Source: Lophium mytilinum (lineage: Eukaryota > Ascomycota > Dothideomycetes > Mytilinidiales > Mytilinidiaceae). From it: a DNA stretch of 64,000 bases. The notes beneath the pieces were generated by a model that worked only from the letters and a program-made list of their open reading frames with translations, searched no databases and was not told the origin of the DNA. This document shows positions 5,867 through 32,686 of the stretch, piece by piece. A program made the position numbers and the translations under genes. Location: contig MU004189.1 of assembly GCA_010093605.1 (NCBI GenBank), forward strand, positions 1,309,834-1,373,833. The letters run 5' to 3'. Every line of letters begins with the position of its first letter. Position 1 is the first letter of the stretch.

Positions 5867-8561
5867 CTACCGGACGGTCCACAGGTTGACGAGATTCCTG
5901 TCGACTGTCGCTAGCAGCTTATTATCTGGCGAAAATGCTAGCACTGGCGAGGCATACATGCTTGTATGCTTAAACTTTTGCAACACCCCGCCTGTTCTAG
6001 TGTCCCATAGTTCTAGTTCGGCTTTAGATCGGTCGTATATAACCAAAAATTTGCTGTTTGGTGAGAATAACGGAACGTAAAGCGTGAAACCATGGAAAGC
6101 ATGTAGAATAACACCTGACCCGGCGTTCCAAAGTCTGATCGCATAACTGTACGCTACGTCAATAGCCGTTGATACCAGCATAGTTCCGTCTGGTGAGTAA
6201 GCCAAAGCAGTGGTATTTTGTGAACTTGTCCATATCACTTTACCGTCGCCACTGTTCCATACTTTGAGGACGTTGCTGCCTTCAGCTGCTGATGCAAGCT
6301 TCCCGCCGCCATGTGGCGACAAGGCCAACGGGCCCTTATGATTGGCTCCGATGTTCCACTTGTACACCCTTTGTTTGGAAGGTATGTCCCAAACCCTGAT
6401 ATAACTATCGCGCGTAACCGTTGCTATCATCTTGTCATCTGGCGAGACGACGTAGTATCTAACCGATCTCCGATGTTTGACCTTCCATTCTGCTGCTTTG
6501 GATCCAAGATATGATACGACGATGAGCGTTGCTCGACCGTCGTGCCTCATTATTCCATCATATTGAAGGACTATTAGTGGCGAGTTGAGTGGTGAGGGCA
6601 GAGTTCCGCGCACGGGCCAGAGAACCTTTTTATACTCTGGTCTGAGGATATTTTTGCCTTTTTGAGCATCTACGTCCCATAACGTAAGCTCATAACCGCT
6701 TGCCGACGCTACTGTCTTGCTATCATCAGAACACCAGCCTACCGCGATCAGCGGGTAATTATATCTTTTGCTTTTCAGCGTCCGCAGGCTGGCTCCGGAG
6801 TAAGGGTCGACAATCCTGACCCACCCATCCCTACATCCTATAGCCAGCAGCTTGCTGTCCGCCGAGAATGCCACGCAACCTACACTGTCGGTACTAACTT
6901 CTAGCGTCCGCAGAAGCTTCCATGGTTCCTCGAAGACTGAGCTGTCTGAAGGACGAAAGCCTACGGTTGTAGTTGGTTGTTGCGTCTGGTTTGTATCTCG
7001 GCCTCCGGATCCAAAGGATGGATACACTGTTGCTGCAATTCCCTCCGATGGAAATGGTGGGTGCAATGTCTGTGCGGAACTGACGGAGCTAGAGGAAGTC
7101 GATTGACTGCCGATATTCCCAGGGGATGAGTAGCCCTGCGCTTCGGGACGGGAGCGGTTCCGTGGACTGTTGTTCTCGCCTTCACGAGGCCTCTTACTCG
7201 TCCACACAGCTCTGTCTGGTTGAGGCATAAAGGTGGTAGAAGGAGATGCTGTAATTCTTGAGTACGTTTGGGGGTCGATAATCCTAGCGCCGGACGTCCC
7301 ACTCCAACTGGCGAATGCCTCTCGAACTGTTGCTTCATCACTTCCCCTCAAGGGCCGTGTGCGCGCTGACAGAGAGACGTCCACGTTGGGTGTAGTGGAC
7401 TGCGTAATTCCTCGAAAGGGGTTGGAGCTGTGCAACTGCATCCAAGGATGGCGAAGCGCTACTGCTGCACTCGTACGGAGATGAGGATTGACTGCCATAA
7501 GGCTGCTGATCAGGGCTGTTCCACTTCCTCCAGTAACAACCTTCAAGTGTTCTTTGGGATATTCCTGAACTCCTTGAACGTAATTTCTGAGCGCGTCTTC
7601 ATCCTGGAATGTGTAATCGCCTGTCAACATCTGAAATGCAATTTCACCTAAAGCCCATAAGTCTGCCGCCTTGTGATCGTAGGAGTCCGTGTATCTGCGG
7701 GCAAAGAATAGTTCTGGCGCCAAATACGATCTCGTGCCTTTGATAGTCGACGGCTCATTTCCATTAGAAGCGCGTTTGCTAACGCCAAAGTCGGCCAGTT
7801 TTACCAACCAAACCCCCGGTGGCTGCGATTCGATAAGAATATTCTATTTCATGTTCGTTAATCAAACTCCTCTGGTGCTCCACGGTTACTTACCGCGGGC
7901 TTGAGGTCCCGGTGTGCAAAATCGTTCTCATGCATCTTTTGCAGCCCTTCGAGTATTTGCCGCGTCAAAAACTGGGCTTCTACTAGCGGTATTTGTCGCA
8001 CCCGCGAGAGGTAGCAGCGTAGATCGCCAAGCGGGTAGTACTCCATAGCAATATAGACCGTGTTTGCATTTTCGTACCATCCGAAAGACTTCACGAAGTA
8101 TGTTTCGTACTGGATCGCATCAGCCAATTCCGCCGTCTCCAAGGGAGCACCTCCAAAACTTACTTTAGGGGCTGAAAACTTTGCCACGGCTTTCAATTCT
8201 CCCAGAAAATCTGCGATCCTGGCTTGCGGAACCTTCCGGATCTTCTTTACCGCGCGAAATGCCCCAGAATTTCTGCCCTCTATGCATTCCTCTAAACATA
8301 CCTCCCCGTATCCTCCTAGGCCAAGGCAACTTGCCTGCTTCCAGTGCTCTTGGAAAGTCGTCCGTCCTCGACTGGCGCTGGACTCGACATAGCTATGAAT
8401 GGTGCGGTCTTCGTGAACAGTCGTTTGGAGATATGAATCGAGCACGAGATCTTCTTGGGCATGATCTAGTATATGGACTCCTGTATTCGCGACCGTATTT
8501 AGTGTCCGTGGGAGTCGCGGTGACGATGGGCGAAGTTGGCCTCACCAGAAGATGCCGCCAT
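5867..8561 (-). CDS. Ser/Thr protein kinase fused to WD40 propeller, 859 aa, three exons
   Basis: Spliced as complement(5867-7843, 7894-8480, 8546-8561), with introns of 50 and 65 bp. The 16-nt first exon encodes MAASS plus one base and joins in frame to VHILDHAQEDLVLDS. The kinase domain lies at about residues 52-330, with glycine loop GLGGYGEV (59-66), lysine K84 in RAVKKIRK, catalytic loop HRDLKPAN (D197), metal site DFG (D219) and GTRSYLAPE, so it looks catalytically competent. After a Ser/Pro-rich linker (~330-480), seven WD40-like repeats fill the C-terminus, with the signatures VRIVD, LTLWDVD, IRVWDI, LKVWNSGD, IRLWNAGSG, LELWDTRTG and NLWTVR. Seven repeats make one closed propeller. 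It shares a 259-bp divergent promoter with the HeLo-pseudokinase gene. Kinase-WD40 fusions suggest a signalling sensor, but the ligand and substrate are unknown. Confidence 0.87.
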
Positions 8562-8820
8562 ACTCTAACCCCGAACTTGGCTCGTCACACCCTCGACTTC
8601 TTTCTGATGAGGAGTGGGTCAAACCAACTGAGCAGGGCAGGAGGTGTATGTGCTGCGCCGGGTTTGCCTTCGTGCGGGGCTGAGGCTCTGCGTGGGGGCT
8701 GTGTTGAAATCAGGCAGCAATCCAGCCTTGCGAGGTCTATACATTCATCGGCACTAACGTTAAACACTGCCATGAACGCAGAGCCTGGCACTCACTCAGA
8801 ATCAAAATCTCAATCTCTCC
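8562..8820. promoter_or_regulatory. Shared divergent promoter, kinase-WD40 / HeLo-pseudokinase
   Basis: Only 259 bp separate the two start codons (8561 on the minus strand, 8821 on the plus strand). Both promoters must lie here or within the genes, so co-regulation is likely. No clear TATA box is visible on either strand. This is inferred from gene spacing. Confidence 0.6.
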
Positions 8821-10409
8821 ATGTCTGGCGCGGAACTCGTTCTCAGCGTAATCGGTGCCGTCGCGGCAGTGGATGTCGCAATCAAGTATATATTTAACAC
8901 CGGGCCCTCTCTACAGCACTGACCGCCAGCCAATAATGAACTTGAAGCTGACAGTTTCTCAACAGATGCGGTTCGAAATTCGTCGCCACGTGTTCCGCCT
9001 TCAAGAATGCGGAGCGCGAAATTCTAGAGCGAGTGCTCCGTATCAACAATAGATGGTACAGAACAAAGTCTCAGCTGGCCTTTCTGAGCCGCGTTTGGTC
9101 CACCCTTGATCGTGAGCACCAGGAGCTACAAAACCAACTACTCGCAAACCTCGTCTCAGCTCTTACCATCGCCGATTCCAAAGCGAGCAGTTTCTTAGCA
9201 GGACACTCGAAGCTAGGCAGAAAAGAGAAACTCAAGTATGTCTTTTTGAAGAAGATTCTAGATAAAACAATCGCCGACCTGGATTTGTGGCAAAACGAGT
9301 TTGACCCGTCCTGGTTTTTGATTCTGAAAATTGGAGGCCAAAACATCGACAAGGAGCTCAATGTTAACATACAAAAGACCCACAATACGATTACCACCGC
9401 TTCAGGCATCCGCGACTCAATCAGGGATAGTCCCCAACAGACTGTGGCTGTACTCTTGCCAAAAGAGGATTTAGATGGAGCTAGGTTCGATGTCCTACCC
9501 TACAGTTCCGCAAAGTTAGCACAGCGAGTAAACTCGACAAGCTGGCTCATTTTGGACCCGATACGAAGCGAGTCTTTACCAGACTTTCAGCAGATGCACA
9601 AGACGGTTCGAGATCTCGCCAGAAGGCTGACCAGGACTGACCCTCTAACATTCTCACTTTTGAAGTGCAGAGGATTAGTGGTGGACAAAGCACAGCTCCA
9701 GTATACCCTAGTCTTCAAAATGCCAGACAACATGGCGAATCCCCGAAGTCTGCGCTCTAGTCTCAACGCGACAGATTTGAAGCATTCTCTCTCCGACCGA
9801 TTTCAGCTCGCGCGACAGTTGGCCCGGGCAGTCTGTTCCATTCACACCTTTGGATTGGTGCACAAGAGCATCAGGCCAGAGAACATTCTCCTCTTCCGCG
9901 ACAACAGCTCGACACTCGGGTCTGCCTTCCTTGTAGGATTTGAGAGCATTCGCCCAGAAGAAGGTTGGACGAGGCTTCGCAGCGATCTTGACTGGGAGAA
10001 GAACCTTTACCGACACCCAAAGCGACAAGGCGTTCAACTTCAGGATCGTTACATCATGCAACATGACATCTACAGTCTCGGGGTCTGTTTGTTAGAAATT
10101 GGCCTATGGACTTCGTTCGTCCAGTACTCCGGTAGTTCTCCAGATCGGACATCTCAAGGTTTCAAGTTCTTCGATAACGTACCAGACTCAGTAAATACTG
10201 CAGATTCGGTGAAGCAACAAATCTTACTCTTAGCGGGAGAAGAGCTTCGAACACGAATGGGAAGCAAATATGCGCGCGTGGTCGAGACTTGTCTCACTTG
10301 TTTAGACGAGGGCAACGAAGACTTTGGGGATGAAACAGAATTTCAAGATGAGGATGGGGTGTTGGTTGCCGTTCGATACATTGAAACAGTGAGCTGCTCT
10401 ATTCCTTAA
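8821..10409 (+). CDS. HeLo-like domain fused to pseudokinase, 502 aa, one intron (8886-8965)
   Basis: Coding blocks are 8821-8885 and 8966-10409; the 80-bp GT-AG intron joins VAIK to CGSKFVATCSAFKNAE in frame. The N-terminus, MSGAELVLSVIGAVAAVDVA, is the hydrophobic, small-residue-rich first helix typical of fungal HeLo / HET-s-LopB-type domains. Amphipathic helices follow to about residue 160. The C-terminal ~270 residues have a kinase fold with key positions lost: HKSIRPEN (321-328) has Ser in place of the catalytic Asp, the DFG position reads GFES, and no glycine loop is evident, while YTLVFK (K273) may keep the ATP-site lysine. Family knowledge: HeLo domains of HET-S and HELLP are membrane-targeting cell-death executioners, and MLKL has a related bundle plus pseudokinase. 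No HET-s-type prion motif is seen at the C-terminus. Confidence 0.85.
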
Positions 10410-12722: not shown

Positions 12723-14816
12723 ATGCACGACCGCAATCCTCACGGAACAGCAGGCATGGATCTCGCAACTCTCGAAACAAATCCACACGCGCCGTTGAGG
12801 CTTCTCTCCCTCGACGGAGGCGGTGTACGCGGCCTATCTAGCCTGATGGTTCTCGACGATCTCATGGAAAGTATCGCCATAGAAGAGAAGCGACTCGGTC
12901 GGAGACCACAAAACGACAGAACACCCCTCAAGCCCTGCGACTACTTCGATTTGATCGGAGGTACGAGCACCGGCGGCATCATCGCTATCCTCCTTTCCCG
13001 CCTTCGATTGGACACCAAGCAATGTATTGGCATCTACTCAAAACTCGCCGAGCAGATCTTCAAGCATGACCGGTCTATCAAAGTCGCGGGCATGAAACTG
13101 CCAACAGGCTCAACCCGCTTCTCCGGCCTCGTCCTCGAAAAATCCATCAAGTCTGCCCTTGTGGATCTAGGTTACGACGAGAACGAGCTCATGTGGGACG
13201 ACTCGCTCTTCGAAGAAGTGCCCGACAATGACCCCTTGCCGCGTGATAGCATCTGGGCCGACACCCACTCTCCGATTAACATGACCGTCTCCCCCGTCGA
13301 GTCAGCGAGAGCAGACAGTCTCCTCCCAACCGGAGGCGACAGCAAAGCACCCACCAGCAACATCGCAGACGAAATACCAATGCCCAAGCATGCTCTCACC
13401 GAGCCTTTTGGGCCAGGCCTCAGCAAACAAGCACGCACCTCGACCTGGAAGCTTCATCCACGCCAATCCGTGCACCAAAAAGTCGGCAAGAAAGGCTGCC
13501 GCGGCTTCGTCCTAACCTCCCTCAAGAACGCGCTCGGCCTCCCCCGAATCCTCTCCACCTACGACCCCAACGACCGCCAAACCCGCATCTGGGAAGCCCT
13601 GCGCGCCACCTCGGCCGCGCCCACCTTCTTCGAAGAGATGCAATTCGGCACACCCAAAGTAACCTACCTCGACGGCGGCGTCGGCTTCAACAACCCCTGC
13701 GCCGAAGTCGACTACGCCGCCAAAGCGCTGTGGGAAGGCCGCTCCATCGGCACCATCGTGTCCGTCGGCACCGGCCTGCAGTCGATCCCCTCGGTCAAGA
13801 AAATCGCCTCCTGGCTCCCCTTCGGCCTCGGCACCGACATCTCCCTCGCGTCTGCTCTCGCGAATATGGCGACCAGCACCGCGCGTGTTGATAACGAGAT
13901 GAAGCGCATGTACCTCGAGAGCGACACGCGCTACTACCGCTTCGACGTCGACCGTGGGCTCGCGAACATCTCGCTCGAGCAGTGGATGCGCGAGGACGAG
14001 ATGGCGGCGCTGACGGAGCAGTATATGCGCGACGCGAAGCAGCTAAGGCGCGCGCGGCAGCTGGGCGAGCTGATGGCGAAACTGTCGGCGCTGCCGCCGC
14101 GTTTTGAGATCTCGGCGACGCATTTCCGGATCGGCATGGACGGGCGCGGGCTCATCGATCAATCATTTAATCTTGCCCAGGTGGATTTCAAGACCGGGAT
14201 GCCCCTAGGCGTCGCGCCGCATCTAGATGACCTGCCGAAGATGTCGAAGTTCCGCAATTCGAGCCCGAGTGGGGAGAGCGGGTTGGCGATTGATGCGAAT
14301 GGGAGGATGCGGAAGGTGTATCCTGTGGCGTCGGATCTCGATGGGGATGGGAGGAGGCAGGAGGCGGCGGTGTTCCAGTGCGTGCGCGCGGATAATGTCT
14401 GTTTGAGGACGCTGAAGACGGGGATTCCGCAGGGGAAGTATCGTGTTGTGTTTATTGTCTCTTTCCAGAACAGTAAGTATACCGCGCCTGAGAATATCGT
14501 TTTCAGCGTTGGGAAGCCGTTTGATGCGCGGACGTTTACGCAGCGGTTTGTGGATGTCAATATCACGCCTGATGCTGTGGGCGTGCTGCTGCACCCGGAT
14601 GCGGTGAGGGTACGCGTTGGGAAGAAGAGGTATGCGGAGAACAAGGGGAAAGGGTGGTTGGAGATTGAGGGGGATGTGGAGGTCCAGGTGGGACTCGATG
14701 GGGCGTTGGGGTTTGTGGTCAGTAAGAGGTATGAGGAGGATTGCTTCGTGGATGGGTTTACATTCGGGGGAGTAAGGCTGGAACCGGTGTTCGGGGGCCA
14801 GGTTAGTAGGGGGTGA
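12723..14816 (+). CDS. Patatin-like phospholipase (PNPLA), 697 aa
   Basis: Intronless. It has the full PNPLA catalytic set: oxyanion loop DGGGVRG (31-37), nucleophile elbow GTSTG with Ser82, and the dyad Asp in YLDGGVGFNNP (Asp317). The reaction known for the family is hydrolysis of acyl esters of phospholipids or neutral lipids. A long polar, low-complexity insertion, with DTHSPINMTVSPVESARADS inside, splits the domain between residues ~155 and 255. About 220 C-terminal residues after residue ~470 match nothing I recognise and contain many beta-strand-like stretches. GC content of the coding region rises sharply from ~13.5 kb. Patatins often serve as effector domains of fungal NLR-like proteins; here there is no NB-ARC or NACHT domain, so it stands alone. 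A TATA box lies 91 bp upstream. Confidence 0.93.
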   Translation: MHDRNPHGTAGMDLATLETNPHAPLRLLSLDGGGVRGLSSLMVLDDLMESIAIEEKRLGRRPQNDRTPLKPCDYFDLIGGTSTGGIIAILLSRLRLDTKQCIGIYSKLAEQIFKHDRSIKVAGMKLPTGSTRFSGLVLEKSIKSALVDLGYDENELMWDDSLFEEVPDNDPLPRDSIWADTHSPINMTVSPVESARADSLLPTGGDSKAPTSNIADEIPMPKHALTEPFGPGLSKQARTSTWKLHPRQSVHQKVGKKGCRGFVLTSLKNALGLPRILSTYDPNDRQTRIWEALRATSAAPTFFEEMQFGTPKVTYLDGGVGFNNPCAEVDYAAKALWEGRSIGTIVSVGTGLQSIPSVKKIASWLPFGLGTDISLASALANMATSTARVDNEMKRMYLESDTRYYRFDVDRGLANISLEQWMREDEMAALTEQYMRDAKQLRRARQLGELMAKLSALPPRFEISATHFRIGMDGRGLIDQSFNLAQVDFKTGMPLGVAPHLDDLPKMSKFRNSSPSGESGLAIDANGRMRKVYPVASDLDGDGRRQEAAVFQCVRADNVCLRTLKTGIPQGKYRVVFIVSFQNSKYTAPENIVFSVGKPFDARTFTQRFVDVNITPDAVGVLLHPDAVRVRVGKKRYAENKGKGWLEIEGDVEVQVGLDGALGFVVSKRYEEDCFVDGFTFGGVRLEPVFGGQVSRG

Positions 14817-21891: not shown

Positions 21892-23198
21892 TGGCTACCA
21901 CTAGGGTTGCTTCTGATCTCTGCTGCCTTTTCTTTCTATTGCTTTATGACTCTCTCAGGTCTCAAACCCCCTTTCAAGCGTCGACATCGGGATATCATCT
22001 TCAAGGAGCTTCGTCTTTCCTTCTCGGGTTAAATCGATGACTTCAACAAACCGAAGCTCCAACTAGGTATTCCGCAACCCCCTTAGTTTCAGCGTTGCAT
22101 ATTCAATTTTGTGTCTGTCTGGGGCGTCTGTCGGGCAAACATGGGCTTCTCCCCCTCTCCGACATACAAGTACAACATCAACCGAGCATAGCACGAATAG
22201 ATCAGATGGTATATAGTCATGATCACTCACTGATGTGCCATGATTGCCCTATAACGACATTTACGATTCTCGATAAATTTCGTTCTCTTTGGAACGCCTA
22301 CCATGGACTTCAGCACTACAGATTCTGAGTATATGTATGTACTTCCTCCCCTATCGAGACATTTAGGTACACGTCGTGTCTTAATTGTCTCTTGATCCTA
22401 TCACTTTCACTAGAGACCGTTTTTCGGGGCCTTCATAGCTTATCAGAATGATAGCCTGCGACGAATCGACAGCTAACAGTGGTTGCGTTGTTGAATGCAT
22501 GAAATCTTTTGAGAGCCACCACGTACAAGCCTCGAACGCGCAGTAATGATCGGTATCTCTAATCATTCCCAAACCGCTCTATCCAGCGACTTCCCTTAAC
22601 TCTCTAATACGTCTCCGCAACCCCCACCCCACTACCGGCCCGACACCCCCAGAACAGAGTCGCTCGCATCCCATGCAGCAACCTGGACACTGGCACCTGT
22701 TCCTCGCCAATCGCAGGCCGTGAACATCGCCTGATTGAAGCGGCATTCCCGTTCCCGCTTCCCTCCGTCGGCTGTGCCCTCCACGCGAGGGGTATCCCTC
22801 ATGATCATTGAGAAGGGCCGCTGCTTACTTGCATGTTCAGGTCATACTCCTGCTTACTCTATTTTTTAACACATATGTGCACCTCACCCGACCCACCCTG
22901 ATCACGTGCGCCGACGTCGCTGTGGTTGTGAGGCTTCAATCTATGCAGCTAGCCCAGCCAAATATACTCTCGCCTTCATAATTGTTACCGGGTTCTGAAG
23001 ATACCTTTTCGGCCGTCGCTTCTCAGCCTCGCCTGCGTGCAGATGGGGGCGCTTTCAGCCTTGCCTCTGCAAGTTAAAAGACAGCCTGATGTCCTCCCTG
23101 CTTTATCACTTTGAACTAGCATTCCCCGATTTCCCGGTGTCTGTGCCATACTTGGCCTTCCAGCGTTCCGCTGTGTTGTCAAGACATCCTAGAGAGTC
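21892..23198. other. Intergenic region with a copy of a dispersed repeat
   Basis: No gene is supported. It contains copy A of a dispersed repeat (22675-22860) and then the upstream region of the kinase-ankyrin gene. The part 22080-22620 is low in open frames. Confidence 0.4.
22675..22860 (+). repeat. Dispersed repeat, copy A (~186 bp)
   Basis: From GCAGCAACCTGGACAC to CTGCTTACTCT this matches 32687-32882 in the same strand orientation, with scattered substitutions and small gaps. Shared blocks include TGGCACCTGTTCCTCGCCAA, GTGAACATCGCCTGATT, GCGGCATTCCCGTTCCCGCT and TCCGTCGGCTGTGCC. It ends 338 bp before the kinase-ankyrin start codon. No terminal inverted repeat is visible. Confidence 0.85.
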
Positions 23199-26100
23199 AT
23201 GGAGAACAACATCGAGCTTGGAGGCATCCAAGCCAAAATCCAGTCGCAAGGTTCCAGTTTCGACAGCCGCCGTCGTGAAGTGCGAAGACGGCGATTCCAG
23301 TCTAGCGAATACTCAACCCGCAAGAGATCCAACAACGACCACGCTCTTGAGGAAGAGTCAGCCTCACAGCCGCTCTTGCTGATCCTTCGTATTCTAAGCT
23401 ACCACAAGATTCGACTCTTCTCGGTTAACCCAAATCAAAGATGGAATTTACGACAGGCTCTCGGCGATGGAAGCACATTTTCTGTGGACGGGGCAGAGTT
23501 ACCTATCTGGGACGCCTTGGCTCACTTGAGATATCGCAACCTTGACATAAAGGGTCCCAAGGAAAAGTTCAACTTCGTCGATCATACGCGCATAAGCTGG
23601 CAGCACACAACGCTTGTAGCCTATAAAGCCTTGGTCGGTAGGAAAAGCATGGACAGAGGCATGATCATGCAGGATCTCATTACAGAACTCCGGGTTCTTT
23701 GCCATCGCCCGCTTCAGAAGCATCCCAATTTCGTTCGACTGCTCGGAGTAGCTTGGATCAGTGAGATTGACATGGGGTATACGGATGACGCCGAGCCACG
23801 TGAATGGCCAACAGTGGTCGTGGAGAAAGCACCCCACGGTTCGCTTCTTGACTTTTTGAGCTCAGAAGAATTCAAGACAACGCGCTCGTCGTTAATGGCG
23901 AAACTGAATCTCTGCATAGACGTTTTGATCGCAATCGTAGTAAGTGTTTGCAGTCCACTTTAGGAAGTGACGCCTAATATGAATTAGGCCCTACATGCGT
24001 GCGATATCTTGCATGGCGACATCAAATGCGAGAATGCTCTCGTCTTTAACACAGAAAAGGGGACAGCGGAAAACTGGAGAGTGAAATTATCGGACTTCGG
24101 TCATGCTATTCTGAACATGCAGGGCAAAGGTTCCAGTGGCTTCACAAGGCGAGAAGTTATTGGTACGGATTTCTACAGCCCCCCAGAGCTTAGTAGCGCC
24201 GAGGCAGTGATAGATGTTGCGAACATGAAAAGCGTCGATGTATGGTGTTGGGGTCTTTTGATGTGGAGAGTGTTGATCGACGGAATGGAATACAGCGATG
24301 CAGAGGGACATCAAATTGATCCAGGCGCAATGCGAGCGCTCAGAGAGCAGGGCAATATTGCTGCCACAGCAAAAGATGCTTGCAAGAATTACCTCAATCT
24401 ACACCACAGTCGGGAAGGCGCAGCTCTAAGTTCGATCGTTGGGATCCTAGTAGACGCCCTTTCCCATAACGCAGCCGACCGCCCAGATGCTCTCTCACTG
24501 CTCAGCCGTTTGAGAAGGGCCTCATCTGACAGGTGAGTGAGACGCCAGACCAGACTGGAAGGTTGCTCAAACTAATTTCGATTAGGGAAGCTGAGGCGGT
24601 AGAGAATTTAGTGCCGGAAAAGCCCCAGTCGATAGAATCTCTCGAGGCCTTACCTTTCTTTAATGTACGTATACCATTCTCCTAATTATATTACTCCATT
24701 CTAACGTCTAGGAAAGCTCACACAATACTACTACGACCTTTGGATGCTCTTGGCCGTTCCTCGCGACATATTGATCGAGCTGCAATCGTTGCATGCCGTT
24801 GACGCGGATGGTTCCCTAGAAGCCACTTTCCAGCTTGGACTCTGCCATGTTGCCGGCTTTGGAGTGCAACGAGACGGCCAACAGGCAGTGGACTTAGTCA
24901 AGCGCGCCGCGGAAGGAGGTCTTTCCAAAGCGCGATTGGCTCTTCCCCGGATTGCAGGCGCTTTTGGAGTCGCTCTGTCCCCCGAAACTCGTCAGCTTGT
25001 AATCTCTTGGCTAATCGAAGCATCGAGGAACGGCCCTGGGATCGCTTGGATGGAATTGGAGCGACTTGGCTTTGAGCAGCGGATCTTGGGTCCTTCCGAA
25101 CTCCTGCGAACTGCAACAAACATCGCCAAATCCCCACACGATTCTGGATTGCTGCATGCTGTAAAGCTAGGTGATGAAGAAGCCGTCCGGAAATTAAGTA
25201 CACATGGCAGTTTTCCTGGACAATTCGGAGAAACTCCCTTACATTGCGCAACCCTATTGCCCAAAAGCGTTGGTCTTCCAATTGCTGAAATCTTGCTCAA
25301 AGGCGGCGCCAACATATATCAGCCGACATCTCGACAATATCAACTATCGAGAGATGACTTTATCCTTGAAGCGATGCCTGAACACACCACACCGCTGGAA
25401 TGGGCCATCATAAACGACCGTGTTTCCTTCGTGAGACTCTTTCTTGAGTTTAGCGAAAGTTCAGATCTACCATCTGAAGTCTATGGATCGACAACCACAC
25501 CACTTGCATATGCCGCCAGGCATCAAAGTATCAAGTGCCTTAAATACCTCTGCAATGAGCATGGTCGCAGTAATGCTGATATCAACACCTTCGACAAATA
25601 CGGATTCTCGGCCTTTTACTACGCCGTGCGCCCCGATCTATTGGACCGTGTGTTACGCTACGTGCCGGAAGAGAGAGATGGGCCTACAAGATCGGATATC
25701 TCGCCTGTTGTCGCGCGCGAGGAAAGCATTATCAATATGCTTGTAGCTTCTGGCTCGGACATGAAGGTCAGCTCCGCGGGACATTTCAACTGTCTACATC
25801 TCATCACAGCATTCGGCGAGCCATCTACCCTTGAGGCGGTTCTAAATATTAAAGGAAGCGATCTACTCGTCAACCAAGAGTCTCAATACGGTTGGACGCC
25901 TTTGGTGGATGCTATTTTTTGGAGGCGCAAAGATTCATTCAAACTTCTTCTCGAACATCACGCGAGTCCAAAAGACATATGGCCCAAAACCAAGCGACAT
26001 GCAATTCACACATGTTGTCTCCTACCAAACACGTCGTCGGCGCTATTCTTCGCTGAAACATTACTCCATGAGCATCCATCCTGTCTGCATGCCCGAGATA

Positions 26101-27663
26101 CATGGAATCGAACACCCTTGCATTTCGCGGCTATTTTTGGCAAGCTAAAACTGATCGACCTGTACTTGTCTAAGGGTGCGAAGCTGCTTGTATTTGATAT
26201 TCACCGCATTACCCCTCTAGGATTGGCGGTAGAAGCTAGGTCGATGAGAGGTGTCAGAAGACTCCGAGATGAACATGACAGCAGGAACCTACCTCTCCTA
26301 GGATTCAAGACATCTTCTTTGTCGCCCAGGTACTTCTCGGTATTCCATTTCTTACTTCAACCTGGAGGGAAGTCTCCAACGTATGTTCGAAACTCTCGAG
26401 TTCCGTCACCTTATCCCGGTTGCGCCGATCATCCATTCTCAGGACCCTCTCTGAATGTCCTGGACGACCTACTCAGTCATTACAAATATCGGGTCAGTTT
26501 TGGCATCAATTTCATCGAAAGCATTGTACATTCTCCCTACAAGCATGAAAGCGGGATCAGGGAGGCCGTGCAAATGGCGAATTGGGATGCCGTTGACATG
26601 ATCCTGAAATCGGGAAAGTTCACGGTCGATTTACGGCACTTGCTCAAAATCGCGTTCGATCAGCGCATTCTGGGCTCAGGGCATTTTGCGAGCGAAGATG
26701 CGAGGAAAAAGATGGTCAAATACCTTTGGCAAGAACAAGAAGAGGAGTACCAAGCGCTGTATAAAACTCGCCAAACATCACTAATGCGTTTCCTATGGAG
26801 ATATCATTACCGGATGTACGGCACCATGGAACAGGAACAATATCAACGAGTCAATCAATGGCTTTTTGACAACCGCTACCTGTGGCACAAACCCATGTTT
26901 CCAGATCTGGACTTATGGGTCCACACCCGCTTGCCGGTCACGCTGATTCTTTCTATCTTCGTAGGGTGCTTGCTCTGTCCACTCCTAGTCTGCCTTGCCA
27001 TTATAACCGCTGATCCGGCCACGCAATATGGAACTCGCAACAAAGGCCGAACTGGTGTTATGGTGTTTTGCGTAAGTCAAGCGTTGATCCGATGCTGGTT
27101 GCATTCGCTGATTAGTTCCGTAAAGACCAGTACTCTACTTTTCTTTCCGCAAATGCTCCGCGGCTTGACAATCGCTTACTGTGCATCTCAGAAAACGCTA
27201 AAACTCCGCAGCTGGCAGATGCGACTTGTTCAATCTGTTCTTTGCTTGGCCGTACCCGCTCTCGGAGTCTTCAACATCTGGATTTTGAACCCTGAAAATG
27301 CCAACATTGTACGGTTTCATCCGAAATATTCGCTGGCGAAAGGTGTTGCATGGGATGCAAGGGTTTTGCCCCCCTGGAGACAGAACATCCTTGGGCATTT
27401 CTTCCGACTGTGTGATGTTCTACTCGCATGGTCTGTAATTGCTTATGTGTAAGTGTTTCCGTCGACTCCGCCGACTCATCTATTGTTCTCGACGACTGAA
27501 GGAGTACAAGCTGATTATATGCAGAGTCTTCCCAGTGATCATACTAGGCACTTGGTGGATTACCACGTTCAATTTCCGCAAGACTCCACGACTTGACGTG
27601 AGCGAGGTAAGCTTGCAGAAAACGTATGTTACATCGCGGAGGGGGTGGCCGTGGCTGGAATGA
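23199..27663 (+). CDS. Protein kinase - Sel1-like - ankyrin - membrane protein, 1414 aa, five exons
   Basis: Spliced as 23199-23939, 23988-24532, 24586-24668, 24712-27448, 27525-27663; introns are 48, 53, 43 and 76 bp and the total is in frame. Residues ~85-430 form a kinase domain with lysine K143 (VAYKALVG), catalytic loop HGDIKCEN (D258, Gly replacing the usual Arg, as in many RD-minus kinases), LSDFG (D283) and GTDFYSPPE. A Sel1-like helical stretch follows (ATFQLGLCHVAGFGVQRDGQQAVDLVKRAAEGGLSKARLALP region). Several ankyrin-type repeats follow, such as GETPLHCATLLP, TPLEWAI, TPLAYAARHQSIKCLKYL, GWTPLVDAIFWRRKDSFKLLLEH and NRTPLHFAAIFGKLKLIDLYLSKGA. At least three hydrophobic segments (around LPVTLILSIFVGCLLCPLL, LCLAVPALGVFNIWIL and VFPVIILGTWW) suggest membrane anchoring at the C-terminus. 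The function is unknown. Confidence 0.82.
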
Positions 27664-30028: not shown

Positions 30029-32332
30029 TTATCCCTCTACATCAAAGAACGACGCCCCATCAAGGTCCAGTCCGGCATCGAAACTTTGCAAAACCCTCCC
30101 GTGGAAAGCCCTCCCCAATTCACACTCAATCTTATCGTCCTTCTCAACACCGAAGTCTCCCGTCAGGCAAGTGACCGCCGCATCCTCATACGCCAAGCCC
30201 ATATCATGGCTCAACAACCCTTTCGACTTGTTAAGTATCTCATGTCGCAGCGCCAGAAGTCCTTTCTGCTTCACAAATCTGCCAAACATACTTGGAAGAA
30301 GATCCCAAAGACCGATTTCGAGCAACAGTAGCCCGAAAGAGTAATAGTCGTGTATTTTTGAGTGCCTTTTGGGCGGATAGCGCCCTTGGCGGTCTGGGTG
30401 GCGGTATATGTCGTTGACAACGTCCTTCTCGTATCGCTTCGTGGACGACTCGTCGCTTTCGCGGGTGAAGTCGAAGCCGCACAGGTAGGGCTCCGAGTAG
30501 TCGATGCGATATCTGTTCTTATGTCTGAAGAAGACGATGTTGTAGCTCGCAATACCCTGATGAACCCACCCAACACCGTGCCACTTCAGCAACGCTTGGC
30601 CGATCTTTCGTGCGATGTTGAAGCGCTCACCTAATGTTGGCCGCTGGTGTCGTGATCGAGTGCTACTTGCCCTTTGACTGTGGTTCCAGAGGATGGTTTG
30701 AAGACTGACCGGCACATACTCGTTCCCGACGGGATTAATAAATATTAAGCCATGTCGACCCTGGTCTTCAGCGGAGAAATAACCCAGACACTTCGGAGTG
30801 CGAAAACCATCTGACTGAGGTGCTTGAAGGACGTCAGCAAGGCGTTTCAATCGACCTTGGCTGAGATCATCCAAGTTCTTATCGGAGTCATCGAGGTGCT
30901 TGTATTCTACAAGAACGGTTCCGTGAGTAGGGTGTTGTTCAGTGAACAGTGATACGGTCAAGGGAGTATCTGCCTGCGGGTCTGGTGTATACGACGCTCT
31001 TTCTAACAAGTTATCGGACTCTACCGGAAAGTTGGCCATCAATCGCACTTTGAGTGATTCTACAATCCCGAGAATCCGCATTTCAGGATCACTGATTGCC
31101 TTCGTCAAACAATCCTTTTGATGGAGCTCTGGCAATGCCATCACGTTCCTTTCAATCGTATCTTGCAAAGCTAGGATACTAGTCTCAAAGCTCCGCAAGA
31201 ACCTGTGTACTTTGATCTCGTCTACGGTTGCGCTGTTTTGGTGGTTTCCATAAGAAGAAAATGAGGTCGCCAGCAGCTTCAGAGCGTTTCCTAATCGAAC
31301 GTTGAAGATGTCCCAGGCGCTGCGGATCTCTTTTTTTGAAGGGTTGGGCATCTTTCTTAGTTGGGCCAGTGATTGGACCTGCGGTGGATGCTCCAAAACA
31401 AAATCGCGAAGACACTCAGCTCGAGACACAACATCAGTGACCATAAGTCCTGATATTTCTCTAGGAGCGTAGGTTTTGAGCCAGTAGATGATTTCGTCAA
31501 GAAGTTCCCCGGACAGTGGGCTGCGTACCGTCATTCTAAGCGTCAAAGCTGCCTCTTCGGAATTCAGCCGTGGCGTTTCAGCAGAAATAGAAATGAGAGG
31601 CTCTAAGCGTATTGTCTCTCGTCTACCTCCCAGCGGGAAGTACAGCGGGGTTTGGAGAAGGCAGCGGTCCGCGCGAGCAAGTTGATGATGTATATCAGCT
31701 ATCCGTGCGTGGCCTTTTGCCTTGAGAGAATCTTCTACTTCCTTGATCCAAGCTGTGGTGAAGGAGTCTTGGCCTGGGCTCGCGGCTTGACAGCCCATCG
31801 CACATGACGCCTGAAGCTCGACGTTTGGGGGGACAGTACGGTCACTAGCTCCTCGTGCAGCTTGTGCAGCATAGCAGCAGTCTAGCAGCAGGAGGACGTC
31901 CCCTCTGGCGTGTACTAGCTTTGGCTGTATTTCATACCAGTCCAGCGTTGGCCCATCCTCACTTTGAGCGGCCCAAACCGCACGCCGCCGCCTATCTTTT
32001 GAAGCGAGGAAATCTTGATCGCCATGACCCCCGTAATGGACGATTGCTAGAGACCGTTTCGGGGGAGACTCTAGCCGAGTCAGGAATTGTGCAATCGCTG
32101 CATCTAAGGCAAGGTGGCTATCGCGGGTTGGAATGGCGAATTGATGGACACGGAATTTCAGTAGCTCTTCGAAGAGCTTCTTGAGCCTGAGAGCTTCCGT
32201 CAGGAATCCAGGCTCGTCGCTCTCTTCCCAATAAAGAAGCAGGACTTGAATAGAGTCATAGTCGTTTTTCGGATTCCTGTCAAATTGCTCCTTCAAGCCT
32301 ACATTGATCTTACTCTTCAGTGCGTTGGTCAT
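30029..32332 (-). CDS. Caspase-like peptidase fused to pseudokinase, 767 aa
   Basis: Intronless; the first ATG is at 32332 (the frame opens upstream with no ATG). Residues ~25-260 look like a clan CD caspase-like domain. A strand, IQVLLLYW, is followed by the catalytic His in SLAIVHYGGHGD (H103), then the nucleophile in VLLLLDCCYAAQA (C153, matching the D-x-C of metacaspases). The LDWYEI stretch and the AWIKEVEDSLKAKGHARIADIHHQLAR helix fit the rest of the fold. A helical linker fills ~270-450. The C-terminus is kinase-like but degenerate: K478 (VLVEYKHLDD) is kept, the catalytic loop reads HQGIASYN (591-598, Asp replaced by Gly), and DFG reads GFDF. Its fold matches the pseudokinase at 9.7-10.4 kb, including the IYRHPDRQGR and SFGLLLLEIGLW motifs. 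Inferred role: regulated cell-death protease. Confidence 0.83.
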   Translation of the reverse strand: MTNALKSKINVGLKEQFDRNPKNDYDSIQVLLLYWEESDEPGFLTEALRLKKLFEELLKFRVHQFAIPTRDSHLALDAAIAQFLTRLESPPKRSLAIVHYGGHGDQDFLASKDRRRRAVWAAQSEDGPTLDWYEIQPKLVHARGDVLLLLDCCYAAQAARGASDRTVPPNVELQASCAMGCQAASPGQDSFTTAWIKEVEDSLKAKGHARIADIHHQLARADRCLLQTPLYFPLGGRRETIRLEPLISISAETPRLNSEEAALTLRMTVRSPLSGELLDEIIYWLKTYAPREISGLMVTDVVSRAECLRDFVLEHPPQVQSLAQLRKMPNPSKKEIRSAWDIFNVRLGNALKLLATSFSSYGNHQNSATVDEIKVHRFLRSFETSILALQDTIERNVMALPELHQKDCLTKAISDPEMRILGIVESLKVRLMANFPVESDNLLERASYTPDPQADTPLTVSLFTEQHPTHGTVLVEYKHLDDSDKNLDDLSQGRLKRLADVLQAPQSDGFRTPKCLGYFSAEDQGRHGLIFINPVGNEYVPVSLQTILWNHSQRASSTRSRHQRPTLGERFNIARKIGQALLKWHGVGWVHQGIASYNIVFFRHKNRYRIDYSEPYLCGFDFTRESDESSTKRYEKDVVNDIYRHPDRQGRYPPKRHSKIHDYYSFGLLLLEIGLWDLLPSMFGRFVKQKGLLALRHEILNKSKGLLSHDMGLAYEDAAVTCLTGDFGVEKDDKIECELGRAFHGRVLQSFDAGLDLDGASFFDVEG

Positions 32333-32686
32333 GGCGGCGAGACCTCGAGAGGGGAGATTCAAGAGAAGAAAGGAGTATTGGCACCAACAGGCTGCCTAGG
32401 CTGAAGGCAAGCAGCAAACCGCCTCGAAAGTGAGCCTTGCGGCTTTAGCGCCATAAATGCGCCTAGCCTCCTGCATGTCTCCAAGAATAGCGGCATGACC
32501 GGTCAATGCGGCAGTATTTGATCAGGGGATACTTCGAGTCTCTGGACATGTTGGAGAGTGGTGGAGGTGATACGGGGAGCCCCGCTGTAGAATACGATCC
32601 CGGCCTGGTGGAGTGAGGCTGACGGTGTGCAGATCAGCCTCGGGCTGTTTTCCATCAAAGATAAGTTTACTCGAGAATATCTCACA

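Follow-up and report, generated by a model that had tools for sequence, protein, structure and literature searches.

We examined a 64,000-nucleotide stretch of the Lophium mytilinum genome (hereafter the window; positions 1309834-1373833 of contig C9 in a 43.18-megabase (Mb) assembly of 24 contigs, to which all C-numbers below refer), in which a pseudokinase gene, PK-A, and a kinase-WD40 gene, KW, are encoded head to head. The same layout recurs at two other places in this genome, and three of the four pseudokinase copies (A in the window, B and C elsewhere, but not D) have a divergent neighbor kinase of one family. The pairing is not due to chance, and its sequence divergence makes the pair look like an old unit kept together: adjacency was kept over a long divergence, since the paired kinases A, B and C are only 40-47% identical among each other and the pseudokinases B and C only 47 and 34% identical to A. 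Because the pairing holds for three of four pseudokinase copies, a sensor kinase with an executioner is a reasonable reading, and we tentatively propose a two-gene system in which the kinase activates a pseudokinase latch and thereby frees its N-terminal region for membrane attack.

Organization of the gene pair

PK-A lies on the forward strand and KW on the reverse strand, with an ATG-to-ATG gap of 259 base pairs (bp); together the two genes are open across 1,361 codons. The gene coordinates, the head-to-head layout and the gap are those given in an earlier note on this DNA, and the GT-AG models contain no internal stops. Introns are sequence-predicted; by eye, copies B and C start with a similar hydrophobic stretch followed by an intron at a similar place. 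The features of the pair are as follows.

8821..10409, forward: PK-A, candidate HeLo-like pseudokinase, 502 amino acids (spliced model, no internal stops)
8821-8885 (exon 1), 8886-8965 (intron, 80 bp), 8966-10409 (exon 2), forward: PK-A, GT-AG model
8821..8885, forward: PK-A first exon, residues 1-22, hydrophobic (Kyte-Doolittle 19-residue maximum 2.02, from residue 6)
8967..9440, forward: remaining N-terminal region of PK-A, residues 23-180 (AlphaFold2 single-sequence model, all helix; predicted local distance difference test, pLDDT, 57.6)
9702..10307, forward: pseudokinase C-lobe-like region, residues 268-469, DUF7580/Pkinase-like (Pfam and PDB profile matches)
9861..9884, forward: HKSIRPEN, catalytic Asp of HRD replaced by Ser (sequence; HK[SN]IRPE in the alignment of A, B and C)
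9936..9944, forward: GFE near the place of DFG, without the metal-binding Asp (register by eye; GF[EN] in A, B and C)
8562..8820, no strand: intergenic stretch between both start codons, 259 bp (spliced models); a candidate two-way promoter
5867..8561, reverse: KW, kinase-WD40, 859 amino acids (spliced model; Pkinase 8.2e-43; WD40/beta-propeller families)
8561-8546, 8480-7894, 7843-5867 (exons), 8545-8481 (intron, 65 bp), 7893-7844 (intron, 50 bp), reverse: KW, GT-AG model
7439..8343, reverse: KW kinase domain, about residues 52-336, start by eye (Pkinase 8.2e-43)
7914-7897, reverse: HRDLKP of KW (sequence)
7792-7784, reverse: DFG of KW (sequence)
5870..6928, reverse: KW C-terminal WD40/beta-propeller region, about residues 507-859 (Pfam matches)

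Recurrence of the pair in the genome

The paralog search covered this one fungal genome. With the pseudokinase as query it gave 21 matches, with three further close copies beside PK-A:

C5:446.7 kilobases (kb): pseudokinase copy B, 47% identical to A
C5:2408 kb: pseudokinase copy C, matches of 34-49%; 34% identical to A in the alignment
C10:1095 kb: pseudokinase copy D, 47% identical to A

With KW as query, at least 56 matches were obtained, and seven loci form the top group of KW relatives (hereafter the family kinases), the next-best other locus reaching 2e-18, with 53 of 159 candidates scored. A family kinase at C5:449 kb lies head to head with pseudokinase B (C5:447 kb), with a start-codon gap of 633 bp, and another at C5:2410 kb faces pseudokinase C (C5:2408 kb) across 644 bp. 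Three of the seven family kinases, KW included, are paired with a pseudokinase, while pseudokinase D on C10 has no adjoining kinase.

A rough estimate of the chance of three independent placements is ~6e-12, and descent from one duplicated ancestral pair fits equally well. The claim that the two genes belong together is borne out beyond chance by the return of the head-to-head layout at two other places. The reading frames beside pairs B and C look different from those beside A, and a shared segment copied with its neighbors was ruled out on that ground (by eye; no search was made).

Catalytic state and kinase relationships

Where active kinases read HRDLKPEN, PK-A reads HKSIRPEN, and the loss of both catalytic Asp residues is common to copies A, B and C in the alignment. 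Because B and C also lack both, PK-A appears to be a long-established pseudokinase rather than a recent mutant. Its Pfam matches of kinase type, DUF7580 at 7.5e-5 (residues 282-469), PK_Tyr_Ser-Thr at 9.8e-5 (268-335) and Pkinase at 2.2e-4 (283-400), all fall under the curated cut-offs, with 22.9 bits against a cut-off of 27 bits for DUF7580 (PF24476). The Pkinase match spans positions 84-190 of the 263 in the profile, mainly the C-lobe, and sequence matching did not recognize the N-lobe. A profile of the three copies A, B and C retrieved EIF2AK1 first from the PDB (6.7e-6), then StkP, B-raf and, more weakly, RIPK1 (8.5e-5); MLKL is missing from these best 60 of 591 matches. The AlphaFold2 single-sequence model of the pseudokinase fold, at a pLDDT of 37.4, was too low to inform.

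KW keeps AVK, HRDLKP and DFG, with a Pkinase match at 8.2e-43, and carries many beta-propeller and WD40 Pfam matches at its C-terminus. Its nearest solved chain is RAD53 (3.5e-27), which we take to be the equivalent of CHK2, followed by STK17A, CDPK and CaMKII types, and no RIPK occurs among the best 60 of its 1197 PDB matches. The core patterns of RHIM were unmatched in KW save for one loose match inside the kinase domain, a missing pattern being weak evidence, and no NACHT or NB-ARC was seen among the best 25 of 38 Pfam matches, which reach down to 4.7e-4.

The earlier note was right that PK-A reads HKSIRPEN and has no DFG, and that its neighbor has all catalytic motifs and a WD40 propeller. 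The kinase fold that it assigned to PK-A stands for the C-lobe, which is matched by sequence, but not for the N-lobe, which goes unrecognized, and the fold model is uninformative. Its description of the kinase as RIPK-like is ruled out, KW being closest to RAD53 and the CAMK type among the best 60 of 1197 PDB matches.

Proposed mechanism

In the proposed system, ligand sensing or assembly by the variable C-terminal tail, which in KW is the WD40 propeller, would switch on a kinase that is otherwise held inactive. The active kinase would then phosphorylate, or otherwise release, the product of the divergent pseudokinase gene, which would act as a latch on the hydrophobic N-terminal helix and on the helical segment that follows it. 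Once released, these two elements would attack the membrane, and the hyphal cell would be killed or walled off, as in incompatibility or anti-parasite defense. We infer all three of the central elements, namely a HeLo-like membrane-active N-terminus, an action of the kinase on the pseudokinase and a cell-death output. Support comes from the pairing in three of four copies at low identity, from the different look (by eye) of the frames around the pairs, from the varying kinase tails, from fusions of a similar pseudokinase region to HeLo and caspase domains, and from the published parallels among fungal death-gene clusters given below. The sensor-executioner pair envisaged by the earlier note survives in that the pairing recurs, but without a kinase of RIPK type and with a HeLo or four-helix bundle (4HB) fold that is only putative. 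A narrower version, in which a RAD53/CHK2-like kinase with a swappable tail directly phosphorylates a HeLo-like pseudokinase as a necroptosis analog without a NOD-like receptor (NLR) or amyloid, seems doubtful to us.

Weighing the proposal

By eye, PK-B and PK-C open with a short hydrophobic stretch as well, with an M start and AEL and VD within it, and in the alignment of the three copies A, E, L and V, D are invariant in this stretch. PK-B matches PF17111 at 0.026; this family, listed as PigL_N, is presumably HeLo-like. Built from the three PK N-termini, a profile matches the N-terminus of a DUF7580 gene at C10:293910 with 21.2 bits, more than any of the 341 decoy pieces; that N-terminus itself matches HeLo at only 0.11. 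N-termini of genes with this pseudokinase-type region match HeLo at 5.5e-40 (on C3), 5.3e-6, 0.017 and 0.11, and a fifth, at C5:381420, has no HeLo match.

Using hhalign, the PK N-termini scored 17.4 against four HeLo sequences (probability 0.65%, 12 columns; best of 60 shuffles 16.6), 29.1 against three N-termini of pseudokinase-region genes (19%, 54 columns; best shuffle 20.1) and 22.1 against the N-termini of five other DUF7580 genes (4.9%, 18 columns; best shuffle 17.5), and those three pseudokinase-region-gene N-termini in turn aligned with HeLo at a probability of 86.8%. With so few sequences, these scores are a hint only; the test with hmmsearch, described below, was weaker than that with hhalign. 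It is possible, perhaps likely, that the PK N-termini are relatives of HeLo. Of the N-terminal HeLo bundle previously suggested for PK-A, the hydrophobic first exon and an all-helix, low-confidence model remain, but Pfam gives no HeLo match and the profile tests are borderline or negative.

Several results weigh against the proposal. Pfam HeLo (PF14479) is listed for none of A, B and C at a maximum E-value of 10, a setting at which the HMMER filters drop most matches above about 0.1; the window gene is not among the eight HeLo matches in the genome. Both AlphaFold2 models are of low confidence, that of the N-terminus (pLDDT 57.6) as well as that of the pseudokinase (37.4). With a seven-sequence HeLo-type profile, which like its stricter five-sequence counterpart was built from N-termini of this genome, 54, 79 and 17 of 1000 shuffles of their own N-termini scored at least as well as A, B and C, respectively, as did 10, 12 and 3 of 341 decoys; with the five-sequence HeLo profile these numbers were 71, 950 and 37 of 1000 shuffles and 13, 239 and 3 of 341 decoys. 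Conversely, when the PK profile is set against six HeLo-type sequences besides C10:293910, 2, 3, 6, 30, 56 and all 341 decoys score above them, one value per sequence. The window pair is also the only locus open in both genes, which leaves one complete module in the genome: in pair B the pseudokinase is open and the kinase has an in-frame TGA, and the C-lobe of pseudokinase C carries a frame change. The WD40 repeats of KW have diverged, a single internal DNA repeat family being found, with units 69-79% alike. For four of the seven family kinases, the flanks (one to a few kb) contain no pseudokinase match better than an E-value of 0.08. Finally, in a tree of the seven family kinases and two outgroups, the paired three group together in 0% of 200 bootstraps. 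No inner branch of this tree is firm, and because the paired kinases are ungrouped as well, three options are left: an ancestral pairing partly lost since, repeated gain of the pairing, or a lack of resolution in the tree.

As an alternative to the latch, the pseudokinase could be an allosteric activator or scaffold of KW whose N-terminal helix tethers the complex to the membrane, with an ordinary signaling output. Pseudokinase activators are well known, for example STRAD with LKB1, the pairing and the complementarity of a dead and an active kinase fit this role equally well, and the HeLo identity of the N-terminus is only putative. We nevertheless consider it unlikely, as a similar pseudokinase region is joined to HeLo and to caspase domains in this genome, which fits the regulation of effectors better, and as pseudokinase B is open while its neighbor kinase has a stop.

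Breakage extends to the unpaired copy D, which lacks about 100 N-terminal residues and has a TAG, and to the C10 family kinase about 46 kb from it, which shows an apparent frame change. Assembly error is a possible source of the stops and frame changes. Stop codons in the transcript of a pseudokinase are reportedly edited in some fungi (PMC4817773), and an in-frame stop is therefore not proof of gene death. Birth and death of partners fits defense or incompatibility genes, and equally a relic in decay. Such decay is central to a second alternative, in which adjacency reflects descent only: a single ancestral pair would have spread to three sites and be in decay, with a shared upstream stretch and no shared pathway. 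The three pairs could indeed share one ancestor, and all three loci outside the window are broken (TGA in kinase B, frame change in PK-C, truncation plus TAG in D); yet the pairs, with kinases at 40-47% identity, are much diverged and still adjacent, where loss would be expected in the absence of function, and the window pair is open across its 1,361 codons. On balance, we find this explanation more improbable than that of an activator.

The tails of the family kinases vary. WD40 occurs in two of seven (KW and the kinase at C19:365 kb), a second kinase-like domain forms the C-terminal tail in two others (C10:1141017-1143738, the one with the apparent frame change, and C16:1469860-1472363), and for the remaining three the scanned stretches of tail matched nothing in Pfam. 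In the C19 kinase (C19:365218-367594), the WD40 match reaches 4.6e-33 in 142 residues, with the array partly masked, and by eye sits behind an apparent transmembrane stretch; the upstream neighbor is transporter-like, on the same strand and, by eye, without the look of a pseudokinase. That the pair is an allorecognition (het) locus, with kinase-WD40 and pseudokinase alleles triggering incompatibility on hyphal fusion, would be a use of the module through the same mechanism and is the least probable of the alternatives: broken copies and differing tails resemble the pattern of fungal incompatibility genes and the C19 sister kinase has a strongly matching WD40 (4.6e-33 in 142 residues), but the WD40 repeats of the window gene have diverged.

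Related genes in the window and the genome

DUF7580 was matched 18 times in the genome, 17 of the matches lying over the cut-off and PK-A being the one below; the eight HeLo matches include six loci over the cut-off. At C3:1992463-1994694, a clear HeLo (PF14479, 5.5e-40) and DUF7580 (3.3e-10) share one open frame, and at C13:1027594-1028979 a frame of 1302 amino acids holds HeLo pieces (41.7 bits together) and a pseudokinase-like stretch.

Twenty kilobases from the pair, on the reverse strand of the window (30029-32395), a Peptidase_C14 match (4.4e-5) is joined to a DUF7580-like pseudokinase region (7.6e-5), and the caspase domain shows YGGHG and DCCYA motifs by eye. The product is possibly a protease sensor regulated by a similar pseudokinase. 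Since a like region is here joined to a caspase domain, the sequences suggest that this type of pseudokinase may be a portable regulator of effector domains. Two further window genes lie on the forward strand:

12723-14816, forward: patatin-like phospholipase (1.2e-22), a family that also serves fungal NLRs as an effector domain
23193-27452, forward: possibly a single gene, with a weak kinase-like stretch ahead of a Sel1 match and numerous ankyrin repeats

Relation to known systems

The window pair resembles RIPK3-MLKL in joining an active kinase to a pseudokinase with a hydrophobic, probably helical N-terminus, and PK-A resembles MLKL in lacking the catalytic Asp residues (HRD Asp replaced by Ser, no DFG). 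It differs in that the window kinase is nearest RAD53 among the best 60 of 1197 matches and has a WD40 tail, the two window genes are adjacent, and the 4HB is only putative. By analogy, the window pair may at most work like RIPK3-MLKL.

With the fungal HET-S/NWD2 and HELLP/PNT1 systems it shares the two-gene executioner-sensor layout, a hydrophobic N-terminal stretch and repeats on the sensor, whereas a kinase replaces the NLR, a pseudokinase region replaces the amyloid motif and Pfam HeLo is unmatched. The fungal HeLo effectors described in the literature consulted are switched on by NLR amyloid templating or fused to an NLR (PMC12881547, PMC10197012, PMC9815663, PMC7885112, PMC12258605). Gasdermin-protease pairs are similar in that the executioner adjoins an enzyme that often has a WD40, TPR or ANK sensor tail, according to a 2025 review (PMC12881547), but in the window a kinase stands in for the protease and a pseudokinase effector for the gasdermin.

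The same review states that some HELL/HeLo-like domains sit on kinase or pseudokinase proteins, that fusions of protease and kinase-like domains may occur, that fungal death pathways are often clusters of two or three genes, and that more than 80% of the gasdermin genes of fungi lie in a cluster with a gene for a protease (PMC12881547). The architecture is thus already known, as HELL-pseudokinase proteins and death-gene clusters are both described there. Fungal HeLo/HELL-(pseudo)kinase proteins of the DUF7580 family have the same overall architecture as PK-A, which is similar to DUF7580 at 7.5e-5; compared with such proteins as described in the literature consulted, PK-A lies under the DUF7580 cut-off, has an N-terminus that is not recognized as HeLo, and has a kinase partner. 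Within the portions of the open-access literature consulted, we found no description of a divergent gene pair in which one gene encodes an active kinase-WD40 protein and the other a HeLo-like pseudokinase, and in the open-access literature nothing on DUF7580.

The 2025 review calls for wider work on fungal HeLo/4HB proteins (PMC12881547). If the narrower version of the mechanism, with direct phosphorylation, is true, the pair would be the kinase-driven counterpart of protease-gasdermin pairs, and the RIPK3-MLKL logic would have been reached from a different kinase family. A kinase that releases a pseudokinase executioner in fungi would mean that this death switch was either inherited or invented more than once. 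Compact and repeated in one genome, the pair would offer a direct test of whether fungi, as animals do, use a pseudokinase executioner released by a kinase.

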